From assembly GCA_945949045.1 (NCBI GenBank), contig CAMFDG010000003.1, forward strand, positions 1-64,000: a stretch of DNA of 64,000 nucleotides, given 5' to 3'. The translations under genes were made by a program, and so were the position numbers. A model generated the notes under the pieces. That model did no database searches. It had not been told where the DNA came from and was given only the letters and a program-made list of their open reading frames with translations. This document shows positions 6,084 through 10,965 of this stretch, piece by piece; positions within the stretch are counted from its first letter, which is position 1, and each line of letters starts with the position of its first letter. This DNA comes from an uncultured Lachnospiraceae bacterium (lineage in GTDB: Bacteria > Bacillota > Clostridia > Lachnospirales > Lachnospiraceae).

Positions 6084-7106
6084 ATGAAAAAAGATGAATC
6101 AGTCATAGGGACAACTACAGATCATGTTACAGACCCTGTCGTGAGGACAATTGCCTATGATATTACAGATCCGAAACCGGGGCAGAAGGTCAGCGGTTTT
6201 CTAAAGGAAAAGGGCTATTCAGAGCAGAATCTTGTGAACCTGAAGAAGGACGGGCATAGTATTCAGGTAAATGGAAGTGATGAGCATCAGAATTATGTTC
6301 TGCAGAAGAAAGATCACCTTATGGTTCAGATTCGGGAGTTGGATTCTTCGGATGGAATCCTTCCGGTAAAGCTGCCGTTTTCCATTGTGTATGAGGATGA
6401 AGATTTGTTTGTGATCGACAAGCCGGCGGGGATGCCAATCCATCCCTCCCGGAATAATCCGGCTAATTCGCTTGGCAATGCTCTGGCGTGGCAGATGAAG
6501 GAAAGGGGAGTCCCTTTTGCGTTCCGGTGTATCAATCGTCTGGACAGGGATACTTCCGGACTTACCATCGTGGCAAAGCATATGGTGAGCGGCGCTATTT
6601 TGAGTCGTATGGTGGCGGAAAAGTCCAGGACAAGGGGAATCCACAGAGAATATCTTGCGATTGTGCAGGGGAGTGTTGAACCACCGGAAGGGGTGATTGA
6701 CGCTCCGATTGCACGGAAAGAAAGCGCCTGTCTGGAGCGTGTTGTGGATTTTGGAAACGGAGATCGGGCAGTGACCCATTACCGCAAAATATCTGAGAAA
6801 AACGGAAACAGCCTTGTTCTGTTAAGGCTGGAAACCGGACGTACACATCAGATCCGGGTGCACATGAAGTATCTGGGATATCCATTAATCGGAGATTTCC
6901 TGTATAATCCCAATTATGTCGGTAATCAGATAGATCGCAAGTGGGTACAGGGGAAAGGTATGGAAAAGGACGGGAGCCATGGTCCACAATACGAAATCCA
7001 CAGGCAGGCCCTTCATGCCTGCCGCCTTAGGTTTCCCCATCCCATGACCGGAGAAATTCTTGAGTTCACTGCACCGCTCCCGGAGGATATGAAGCGGTTG
7101 CTGTAG
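6084..7106 (+). CDS. RluA-family pseudouridine synthase
   Basis: A 340-residue RluA/RluD-type enzyme that isomerises uridine to pseudouridine in RNA. The catalytic block CINRLDRDTSGL holds the nucleophilic aspartate (near residue 157); YEDEDLFVIDKPAGMPIHPS and LETGRTHQIRVHMKYLGYPLIGD are the other family motifs. An S4-like N-terminal region (VSGFLKEKGYSEQNLVNLKKDG) precedes the catalytic domain. The target rRNA or tRNA position cannot be assigned. The ribosome site is weak. It stands alone and is divergent from the padR cassette. Confidence 0.92.
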   Translation: MKKDESVIGTTTDHVTDPVVRTIAYDITDPKPGQKVSGFLKEKGYSEQNLVNLKKDGHSIQVNGSDEHQNYVLQKKDHLMVQIRELDSSDGILPVKLPFSIVYEDEDLFVIDKPAGMPIHPSRNNPANSLGNALAWQMKERGVPFAFRCINRLDRDTSGLTIVAKHMVSGAILSRMVAEKSRTRGIHREYLAIVQGSVEPPEGVIDAPIARKESACLERVVDFGNGDRAVTHYRKISEKNGNSLVLLRLETGRTHQIRVHMKYLGYPLIGDFLYNPNYVGNQIDRKWVQGKGMEKDGSHGPQYEIHRQALHACRLRFPHPMTGEILEFTAPLPEDMKRLL

Positions 7107-7413
7107 AGAGAAATTGTAGTGTTTTTAACGAAAGCAGCAACTGTGCAAATCGAAAGTTGTCAGGTGGTGAATATTTGATGCTTTGGGCGTGGTAAGTAAG
7201 GTATTTGCCTATACGCCCATTTACAAATTGTCTAAACGGCTGGTGTGCAGACATTGCATGTACTTGCAGTTATTGCACCGGTATATTTTTGAAACCAGGG
7301 AGAAATAAGGAGGAGTTCGGTAATGATAGATGAAAAAACAGTAGTAGTAACAAAGGATATACCTCCACATGCTGAATGGGTAGCACCAGCTACCCACAGC
7401 AGACAATGATTCC
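7107..7413. other. Intergenic region with one GGGCG repeat
   Basis: No gene is supported. The only structure seen is a stem of GGGCGT (7185-7190) with ACGCCC (7213-7218), preceded by GATGCTTT. The same GATG-TTTTGGGCGTGG block recurs at 23961. A partial terminator role for endonuclease III, which ends at 7414 on the minus strand, is possible but no T-run was found. Confidence 0.5.
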
Positions 7414-8187: not shown

Positions 8188-9360
8188 CTACTTCCTCAGG
8201 ATTCCACTCTGATTGATCACACCAATCAGCTCCTCAATGGTCTCCACCGGCAGCACCAGGGCAAAACGCACATACCCTTCACCGCCGCTTCCGAAGGCAT
8301 CTCCGGGGGTACAGATGACGCCGGTTTTATCCATCAGTTCCATGCAAAATTCCTGCGAGGAGGAAAATCCCTCCGGAATATGGGCCCAGGCAAACATGGT
8401 GCCCTTGCTGTCCGGGACGTTCCAGCCGATGGAGCGGAGCCCGCCACAGAGAGCATCACGCCTTGCCTGATAGTTCTTACACTGTTCCCTCACACCATCT
8501 AACGGTCCGGTCAGGGCTGCGATGGCCGCCCGCTGGATGGGCTCGAAAATGCCGAAATCATATTGGGAGCGCAGCAGCTTGATGGCGTCTATAATCTGTT
8601 TGTTGCCCACGAAAAAGGAAACTCTCGCACCGGTGAGATTGAAGGATTTGGAGAGGGAAAAGGCCTCAATTCCAACTTCCTTTGCGTGTTCATGCTCCAG
8701 GAAGGAGCCACCGTAAACACCATCGTAGATGATATCGGAGTAAGCATTGTCATGAACGACGATAATATTGTATTTTTCCGCAAAAGCAATCAGTTCATCG
8801 TAAAATTCCGGTGGGGCAATGGCACAGACCGGATTGTAGGGATAGGAAACCATGATGTACTTGGCACGCCTTGCAATGTCCTCAGGGATTTCATCCAGGC
8901 GCGGAAGAAAATCATTTTCCTCCTTCAGATCATAGAAGTATAATTCTGCTTCCCCGAGATAAGCACCCACCTCGAAGACCGGATAGCCGGGGTTGGGAAG
9001 GAGAACCACATCCCCCGGATTACACAGTGCCATACCCAGATGGGCCACTCCCTCCTGGGAACCGGGCATGGCAACAATTTCATCTTCGGAAACGGTGACA
9101 CCAAAGCGTCTCTCGTAATAATCTTTAACAGCGGCTGTAAGCTCCGGGATGTCCCTAAGGGTATAGTGGAACTTGTCCGGATCCCTGGCAGCATCGATCA
9201 GCGCCTTCTGCACATGCTCTGCCACCGGGAAATCCGGGGTTCCCACAGAGAGATTATAGACCTTTCGTCCGCTGGCCAGCAGCTGCTCCTTCTTTTCGTT
9301 CAATGCGGCAAAAATGCCGGTTTTAAAATGATTAAGCCGTGAGGCTGTCTCAATCTTCAT
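8188..9360 (-). CDS. Class I/II PLP-dependent aminotransferase (DapL/AlaA-like)
   Basis: A 390-residue fold-type I aminotransferase. The PLP lysine is in AFSLSKSFNLTGAR; the pyridine-N aspartate region is HDNAYSDIIYDG; NPV and the C-terminal YVRFALV arginine are also in place. The overall motif set resembles LL-diaminopimelate aminotransferase and alanine-type transaminases, and the substrate cannot be fixed from sequence. The ATG at 9360 follows GGAGG by 9 nt; an upstream in-frame ATG at 9381 lacks a ribosome site. No biosynthetic partner is adjacent. Confidence 0.9.
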   Translation of the reverse strand: MKIETASRLNHFKTGIFAALNEKKEQLLASGRKVYNLSVGTPDFPVAEHVQKALIDAARDPDKFHYTLRDIPELTAAVKDYYERRFGVTVSEDEIVAMPGSQEGVAHLGMALCNPGDVVLLPNPGYPVFEVGAYLGEAELYFYDLKEENDFLPRLDEIPEDIARRAKYIMVSYPYNPVCAIAPPEFYDELIAFAEKYNIIVVHDNAYSDIIYDGVYGGSFLEHEHAKEVGIEAFSLSKSFNLTGARVSFFVGNKQIIDAIKLLRSQYDFGIFEPIQRAAIAALTGPLDGVREQCKNYQARRDALCGGLRSIGWNVPDSKGTMFAWAHIPEGFSSSQEFCMELMDKTGVICTPGDAFGSGGEGYVRFALVLPVETIEELIGVINQSGILRK

Positions 9361-9563
9361 TCTTTTGTGCCTCCAAATCAAATGTTGTACGTTCGTATCT
9401 GCTTTGCCTTTTCACAGAAACTCTATTTCTTAGTGTAAGACTTTTTGCCGGGGATTACAACAGTAAAAGGGGAGATTTATTTGCACTTTGTGGTATGCAG
9501 GACTATAATAAGGGGTAGATTAAGAAATAGATTGAGGATGCAGCTCACGGGATTTGTAAGATA

Positions 9564-9660
9564 CTGGGCGGAGAGCACATGGCGGAAAGTGTATCGCCCA
9601 GAAAGATCTGCTGGCATCCGAAAATGTGGGCGATAGGGGAGCAAAATAGGTTCTCCGCCC
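9564..9660. repeat. GGGCG-type structured repeat, copy A
   Basis: A 97-bp unit starts CTGGGCGGAGAG and ends TTCTCCGCCC. Outer arms GGGCGGAGA (9566-9574) and TCTCCGCCC (9652-9660) pair perfectly, and inner arms TATCGCCC (9592-9599) and GGGCGATA (9628-9635) also pair, giving nested hairpins. It is a direct repeat of copy B, 133 bp away. Confidence 0.85.
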
Positions 9661-9696
9661 AAAAAAGATTGGAATAATAGAGAAATGCTATTAATT

Positions 9697-9793
9697 CTGG
9701 GCGGAGAGAAGATCGCGGAAAGTGTATCGCCCAGAAAAATCCGCAAGTATCGTAAAATATGGGCGATAGAGTAGAAATTGGGATTCGCCGCCC
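9697..9793. repeat. GGGCG-type structured repeat, copy B
   Basis: A second 97-bp unit of the same length and orientation as copy A. The first 40 bases are almost identical (GCGGAAAGTGTATCGCCCAG is shared). The inner hairpin (9725-9732 with 9761-9768) is perfectly kept; the outer stem is shortened to GGGCGG/CCGCCC. Differences cluster in loops. Confidence 0.85.
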
Positions 9794-9906
9794 ATTGGGA
9801 GAATGGGACAGTTTGGATACAAGGGGAAACTTATAAGTTGGACGCTGATTTTGATTGAAAAAAGAAAAGCTAAAAAAATGAAAGTTATGGAAGGAGACTT
9901 ACAAAT

Positions 9907-10965
9907 ATGAGCAGCAAACACATTGCAATTCCAGCGCTACTTAAAATCGGTCCGGGGGTACTGGATCAGCTGGGAGATCATTTGAAGGAACTGGAACTGG
10001 AAAAGGTAGTCATTCTTTTCGGAAACGGCCTGATTGATATGTTTGGAACGGCTGTGATGGAATCCTTAAAAGATGCGGGCATTGAAGTGGTAGAGTATCA
10101 GGAACTGGATACGGTGCGTTTAGAGGATCTTACCAGCCTTGCCTTTTCTTTTCCGGCCCGGGTGCAGGCGGTCATCGGCATCGGCGGAGGAAAAGTGATT
10201 GATGCAGCCAAATACTGTGGTTTTTTGCGGAATCTTGCCTTTATCAGTATTCCGACTTCAGCCTCCAGCGACGGCTTTTCCAGTGCCAGTGCATCCCTTC
10301 TGGTGGAGGGACACAGAAAGTCCGTTCCGGCCAGACTGGCCTACGGAATTGTGGTGGATACCCAGATTATCAAAAGTGCACCGAAGAAGTTTCTCTATTC
10401 CGGAATCGGTGACATGGTTTCGAAAATCACAGCACTCTACGATTGGATCTTTGAGGAGAAACACGGCTGTGGCAAGGTGAACGATTTTGCCGTGATGATT
10501 GCAAAGAAAGCAGTGAACAGCTTTGTGCGGACACCTTTCGAATCGATTGATGACGATCTGTTCCTGAAAGAACTTCTGGATTCTCTTGCCATGAGTGGAA
10601 TTGCCAATGAGATTGCAGGCAGCAGCGCGCCCACCAGTGGCAGCGAGCATCTGATCTCCCACGCGCTGGACAAAATGCTGGAGCAGCCGCAGCTTCATGG
10701 TATTCAGGTGGGAGTGGCCACCTATCTGATGAGTGTTGTGCACGACCACCGCTATAAGAGAGTGGATACAATTTTTACCCAGACCGGTTTCTGGGATTAT
10801 GTGAAGACTCTGGAACTGCGCAGGGAGGATTTTGAGAAAGCCATCGATCTGGCGCCTTCCATCAAGCCCTTCCGGCATACTTATCTGCATGAGCAGCAGT
10901 ACCGGGATAAGGCGAAGGATGTGCTTCGCACCGATCCGAGACTGCAGGAGATACTTGTGGATTAA
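9907..10965 (+). CDS. sn-glycerol-1-phosphate dehydrogenase-like enzyme (EgsA/AraM family)
   Basis: A 352-residue member of the iron-alcohol-dehydrogenase superfamily, closest in motif set to the AraM/G1P dehydrogenase branch. It shows the NAD-binding AVIGIGGGKVIDAAKY, the nucleotide loop SIPTSASSDGFSSASASL, and metal-ligand regions GSEHLISHALD and LHGIQVGVATYLM. The family reduces dihydroxyacetone phosphate to sn-glycerol-1-phosphate; close relatives act on other polyols or in dehydroquinate-like chemistry, so the substrate is provisional. AAGGAGAC lies 8 nt before the ATG. Confidence 0.85.
   Translation: MSSKHIAIPALLKIGPGVLDQLGDHLKELELEKVVILFGNGLIDMFGTAVMESLKDAGIEVVEYQELDTVRLEDLTSLAFSFPARVQAVIGIGGGKVIDAAKYCGFLRNLAFISIPTSASSDGFSSASASLLVEGHRKSVPARLAYGIVVDTQIIKSAPKKFLYSGIGDMVSKITALYDWIFEEKHGCGKVNDFAVMIAKKAVNSFVRTPFESIDDDLFLKELLDSLAMSGIANEIAGSSAPTSGSEHLISHALDKMLEQPQLHGIQVGVATYLMSVVHDHRYKRVDTIFTQTGFWDYVKTLELRREDFEKAIDLAPSIKPFRHTYLHEQQYRDKAKDVLRTDPRLQEILVD

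Follow-up and report, generated by a model that had tools for sequence, protein, structure and literature searches.

The window, i.e., the whole 64,000-nucleotide stretch analysed here, contains two direct copies with nested inverted repeats, best placed at 9561-9661 and 9694-9794, between a divergent aminotransferase gene and a glycerol-1-phosphate dehydrogenase-like (egsA-like) gene. Repeat finding in the window gave 79% identity at an offset of 133 bp, and BLAST against the genome itself aligned one copy to the other at 82% over 97 bp (E = 2e-19). Both copies fold better than shuffled sequences on either strand (z = -3.6 and -2.7). The sequence-only reading had drawn each copy as one 97-bp unit, which is wrong: each consists of two palindromes of 35-36 bp joined by a 26-bp spacer. 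The locus is an array of four units of the form TGGGCG-N23/24-CGCCCA with spacers of 26, 36 and 26 bp. The features are as follows (x and y denote the half-sites with GGAG and with ATA/ATAG, respectively).

7184..7219: single fifth unit of the family; the genes on either side end at 7106 (plus strand) and 7414 (minus strand)
8188-9363, minus strand: aminotransferase gene, divergent, flanking the array
9481..9509, plus strand: likely promoter TTGCAC-17-TATAAT, read directly from the sequence and shared with array-less sister species
9565..9600: unit 1, 36-bp palindrome TGGGCGGAGAG...TGTATCGCCCA, order x-y, exact pattern match
9601..9626: spacer of 26 bp, A-tracts close to either end (GAAAG...GAAAATG)
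9627..9661: unit 2, 35-bp palindrome with the order inverted to y-x, exact pattern match
9662..9697: 36-bp spacer
9698..9733: unit 3, 36-bp palindrome, order x-y, exact pattern match
9734..9759: spacer of 26 bp, again with A-tracts close to either end
9760..9794: unit 4, 35-bp palindrome, order y-x, exact pattern match
9907..10965, plus strand: egsA-like gene (Pfam Fe-ADH_2, E 8e-39)

The nested complementarity in the window arises because asymmetric units, with an x half (GGAG) and a y half (ATAG), alternate in orientation. The resulting layout (x-y, 26, y-x, 36, x-y, 26, y-x) is identical in arrays on the contigs C33 and C24, and alternation was found only in these three; the units of other arrays run in direct orientation or point to the centre. 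The inner stem TATCGCCCA/TGGGCGATA, which had been taken as a sign of selection on a folded structure, is the same in both copies, but such identity is uninformative in this respect.

The egsA-like gene also matched NCBIfam PRK00843 (E 7e-70), yet remained under the cut-off of that model. Of the genus genomes that were searched, a minority carry such a gene, and the neighbourhoods of the egsA-like genes of the genus mostly differ. A promoter consensus scan alone performed at chance level (1 found vs 0.9 expected); an identical promoter precedes the egsA-like gene in two sister species. The promoter at 9481-9509 would likely place the array within the presumed 5′ leader of the egsA-like gene.

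A covariance model built from both window copies retrieved many further pairs from the same genome, several of them at 134-bp spacing, and reading these matches gave the true unit, TGGGCG-N23/24-CGCCCA, half of the repeat as drawn. In the 2.16 Mb genome, 134 exact copies of the palindrome were counted, compared with 1 for the reversed pattern; the window alone holds 5 (0.07 expected). The absence of further copies, named beforehand as pointing to a simple local duplication, is thus contradicted by more than 130 dispersed copies. These copies were found only by the structure model or the palindrome pattern and are missed by plain BLAST. A BLASTN search of 62 genus genomes with the 101-mer gave chance matches only, because the unit interiors diverge. 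No copies were found in the phage and plasmid collections searched, nor in viral contigs searched with a 20-mer core. A scan of genome contigs with the core yielded two chance matches, which were coding-looking and without an array.

Placement was assessed in a 510-kb sample of the genome, taken as stretches. Coding sequence makes up 88% of this DNA, yet all but one of the 108 units (107) fall between genes, and four arrays start at a distance of 1-11 bp from a stop codon. No common theme emerged from a scan of 20 flanking genes; they include typA, genes for an hflX-like GTPase, a thiD-like kinase, a groEL-like protein and a MoxR-like ATPase, and also an ABC-F-like protein, a sodium:solute symporter and others.

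Another dispersed element, some 150-200 bp long or longer and with copies far more alike, bears degenerate units (TGGGCGTGGAGAGTAAGCAGTT...) and was located at L077:9200-9430, L079:13780-13910, L083:2750-2940 and L139:5770-5920. A piece of it precedes the window unit at 7184-7219. Its units are in phase, and it was weighed as a parent element of the palindrome family.

The lengths of units and spacers are tightly restricted. With one mismatch allowed, the 510 kb contained 46 units of 35 bp, 57 of 36 bp, two of 34 bp and none of 37 bp. The distance between exact half-sites is 29 or 30 bp inside a unit and mostly 22, 32 or 42 bp across a spacer. Spacers measure 16 bp (12 cases), 25-26 bp (37) or 35-37 bp (29), with one of 31 bp and one of 134 bp as exceptions, while their sequences are near-random between arrays (37% identity vs 33% when shuffled) except for the unit-adjacent A-tracts. 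When arrays were simulated with spacer lengths drawn at random from 12-40 bp, the periodicity reached at most 0.21, and none of 200 runs attained the observed 0.84. The best period was 10.26 bp, about one turn of B-DNA. It should be noted that adding a constant to the spacers gave nearly equal coherence at other periods; therefore, 10.26 bp is no measurement of the helix pitch. By this offset control, the phase at the origin does not discriminate, and it was rejected as independent proof of helical pitch. The 10-bp step is consistent with a helical requirement without proving one.

A plain local tandem duplication of an accidental, functionless hairpin would fit the two tandem copies in the window and the near-identical internal copies of some arrays elsewhere. 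It does not fit the dispersal of more than 130 copies, whose spacers are unrelated and whose lengths are fixed, nor a ruler that recurs in other species. As a full account it is ruled out by the 134 copies together with the unit-length and half-site ruler, and we regard it as very improbable. Two further arrays (L141:7597-7835 and L146:11543-11985) have 16-bp spacers and strictly direct units, alike within each array, and have probably undergone recent tandem growth in 51-bp steps.

Half-site positions 2-5 are conserved at 98-100%, whereas sequence varies from position 7 onward; only 4 of 108 units carry two mismatches. Across the family, pairing within the unit interiors does not exceed the level expected from column composition: complementarity was 0.28 against 0.34 expected in 35-mers (p = 0.96) and, marginally above expectation, 0.39 against 0.35 in 36-mers (p = 0.04). 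The subfamily of the window behaves differently. Its 8 nested pairs showed 13 double-change cells compared with 6.6 after shuffling, a value equalled by 1 of 500 shuffles, and 84.9% paired positions compared with 81.0%, in an alignment of 8 related sequences that was fitted to the structure. The compensatory changes fall mostly in the outer stem; in the inner stem, one pair has a double change. In addition, facing half-sites across the 36-bp spacers share bases 7-12 in 51% of cases against 37% by chance (p = 0.002).

The covariation bears on the proposal that the repeat is a cis-acting or small structured RNA with nested double hairpins, e.g., a tandem riboswitch in the egsA leader. The better-than-shuffled folding and the position between the likely promoter and egsA agree with it. 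However, a search of Rfam at gathering and relaxed thresholds gave no relevant match, related arrays adjoin unrelated genes, and family-wide excess complementarity is little or none. A tandem riboswitch with a pseudoknot GCGGA/UCCGC was considered and rejected; this pairing is possible in both window copies and is not conserved in relatives. The array is also missing from the egsA leaders of sister species that share both promoter and gene: that of G030 is short, and that of G039 holds only a half-site-like remnant, whereas a riboswitch is expected to be kept upstream of the same gene. Finally, the 10-bp spacer steps are left unexplained by an RNA, and these steps, combined with free spacer sequence, argue against constraint at the RNA level. 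What stands of the structured RNA in the sequence-only reading is the modest covariation of the outer stem; since the alignment behind it is small, of related sequences and fitted to the structure, we keep the RNA as a minority view, which seems to us quite unlikely.

Arrays are absent from other syntenic sites of relatives as well. At the typA site, G030 has no array and shares the downstream neighbour with the window genome (G000). At the ABC-F site, the array is missing in G039, G029, G002 and G030, and two proteins of the relatives at this site are 97-99% identical to their G000 counterparts. The synteny of the fetched loci suggests that G000 has one more array of its own and that one array is specific to G039. 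Therefore, despite their conserved half-sites, arrays turn over fast between sister species.

Two-unit arrays, searched with a pattern allowing spacers of 15-38 bp, were counted in six species of the genus: G000 (129), G039 (62), G035 (11), G029 (4), G043 (4) and G010 (2). None were found in G030 or G012. In the other five carriers the spacers measure, with few exceptions, 15-16, 25-27 or 34-37 bp, and the ruler is thus common to all six species. Outside the genus, the 392 genomes sampled across the order gave matches at chance level, except for a different repeat in G164 and G188. These two genomes, from another family of the order, contain a dispersed 68-bp repeat, TGGGCGAG-N20-CTCGCCCAG..CGTCTGGGC, which includes a palindrome of 36 bp and a gap of 27 bp (L176:1501-1568; L177 around 1500-1570), possibly a distant analogue of the TGGGCG family.

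The closest known systems are the REP and BIME elements, which are short (20-40 bp) extragenic palindromes, clustered, present in more than 100 copies per genome and amplified in a species-specific manner [PMC2817692, PMC3733652]. BIMEs have partly alternating orientation and both short and long spacers [PMC2817692, PMC3733652]. By definition, a REP carries the tetranucleotide GTAG (or CGTC) at one end, and the spacers of REP dimers are mostly 20-100 bp and variable, some families having spacers of similar length and differing sequence [PMC3733652]. The present family resembles them in its short palindromes, high copy number (134) and extragenic placement (107 of 108 units). It differs in having symmetric half-sites at both ends, spacers limited to about 16, 26 and 36 bp, and no terminal tag: GTAG occurs in 1 and CGTC in 4 of 216 unit flanks. 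The best reading is that the family is REP/BIME-like but distinct and not a member. The open-access literature that we searched contained REP/BIME work [PMC2817692, PMC3733652, PMC12306157, PMC2267715], mostly on phyla other than that of this Clostridia bacterium, and no description of the TGGGCG family or of such a ruler.

The resemblance raises the possibility of a REP-like, non-autonomous mobile family, i.e., palindromes that fold as single-stranded DNA and depend on a transposase acting in trans for their movement, with the ruler reflecting how the enzyme measures its target and the arrays needed by no host protein. Extragenic placement, palindromic form, high copy number, alternation in part of the arrays, presence or absence at syntenic sites and a separate, more uniform dispersed element bearing the same units are all in its favour. 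Indeed, a non-autonomous palindromic element, the other candidate of the sequence-only reading, came close, given the more than 130 dispersed palindromes whose presence differs between sister species. On the other hand, besides the rarity of the tags, fresh copies should be alike, and here the spacers and interiors mostly differ while half-sites and lengths are conserved. Moreover, the Y1 transposase (PF01797) was absent from G000 (80% complete), G039, G029, G043 and G010, and it was rejected as the driver of the arrays on account of its absence from five of the six carriers. The low-copy carrier G035 has two Y1 transposases (L214, L215); the high-copy carriers have none. Taken together, we consider mobility of this kind a serious contender, although an unlikely one.

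BOX and other modular intergenic repeats of Firmicutes are lineage-specific repeats of low-GC Gram-positive bacteria. The family described here, set against that general picture, is likewise modular, lineage-specific and intergenic, but its 6-bp half-sites enclose near-random interiors, unlike the conserved modules of BOX, and we know of no comparable ruler for BOX-type repeats. As in CRISPR arrays, repeats of about 36 bp alternate with spacers that are constant in length and diverse in sequence; in contrast to CRISPR, the repeat interiors vary within an array, spacers fall into 10-bp classes, and there are many short arrays. Phased operator arrays, such as those of looping repressors or partition sites, place inverted half-sites at distances of whole helical turns, and the sequence between them is unconserved. 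The TGGGCG family resembles them in this and differs in its approximately 130 copies beside unrelated genes across the genome and in that its protein is putative.

Based on the above results, we suggest that this is a lineage-specific family of extragenic palindromes whose inverted half-sites are bound by a host protein along one face of the helix, a reading to which we give about an even chance. Each unit has the half-sites TGGGCG and CGCCCA, with starts 29 or 30 bp apart, and spacers of 16, 26 or 36 bp, the sequence of which matters little, join the units. With these spacer lengths, adjacent half-sites are therefore about 2, 3 or 4 helical turns apart. A putative host protein, probably multimeric, may read the half-sites on double-stranded DNA and polymerise or form bridges along one helix face. 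The arrays come and go quickly, mostly at intergenic sites and at sites 3′ of genes and, in the window, in the presumed leader of the egsA-like gene; they may help to organise the chromosome or act where genes end. The outer-stem covariation and the shared bases 7-12 across 36-bp spacers count against a pure half-site model, which predicts neither. The arrays whose spacers are 16 bp long have the look of recent tandem duplication, and these too were counted against protein-binding arrays. A more specific form of the binding-array reading, in which this is a new array type of some Clostridia, with a dedicated protein reading helical phase, selection acting on half-sites and turn-quantised distances alone, and arrays rebuilt quickly at new intergenic sites, is conceivable but rather doubtful.

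Repeat families of such abundance shape bacterial chromosomes and transcripts. The recent gain of arrays at syntenic sites and their near-random interiors raise the question of how such arrays are built. Caution is also called for, as an inserted repeat may be what gives a leader in such a genome its structured, "riboswitch-like" appearance. Furthermore, spacers whose lengths are fixed in steps of 10 bp, with their sequence left free, directly suggest a protein that reads DNA and would be amenable to isolation.
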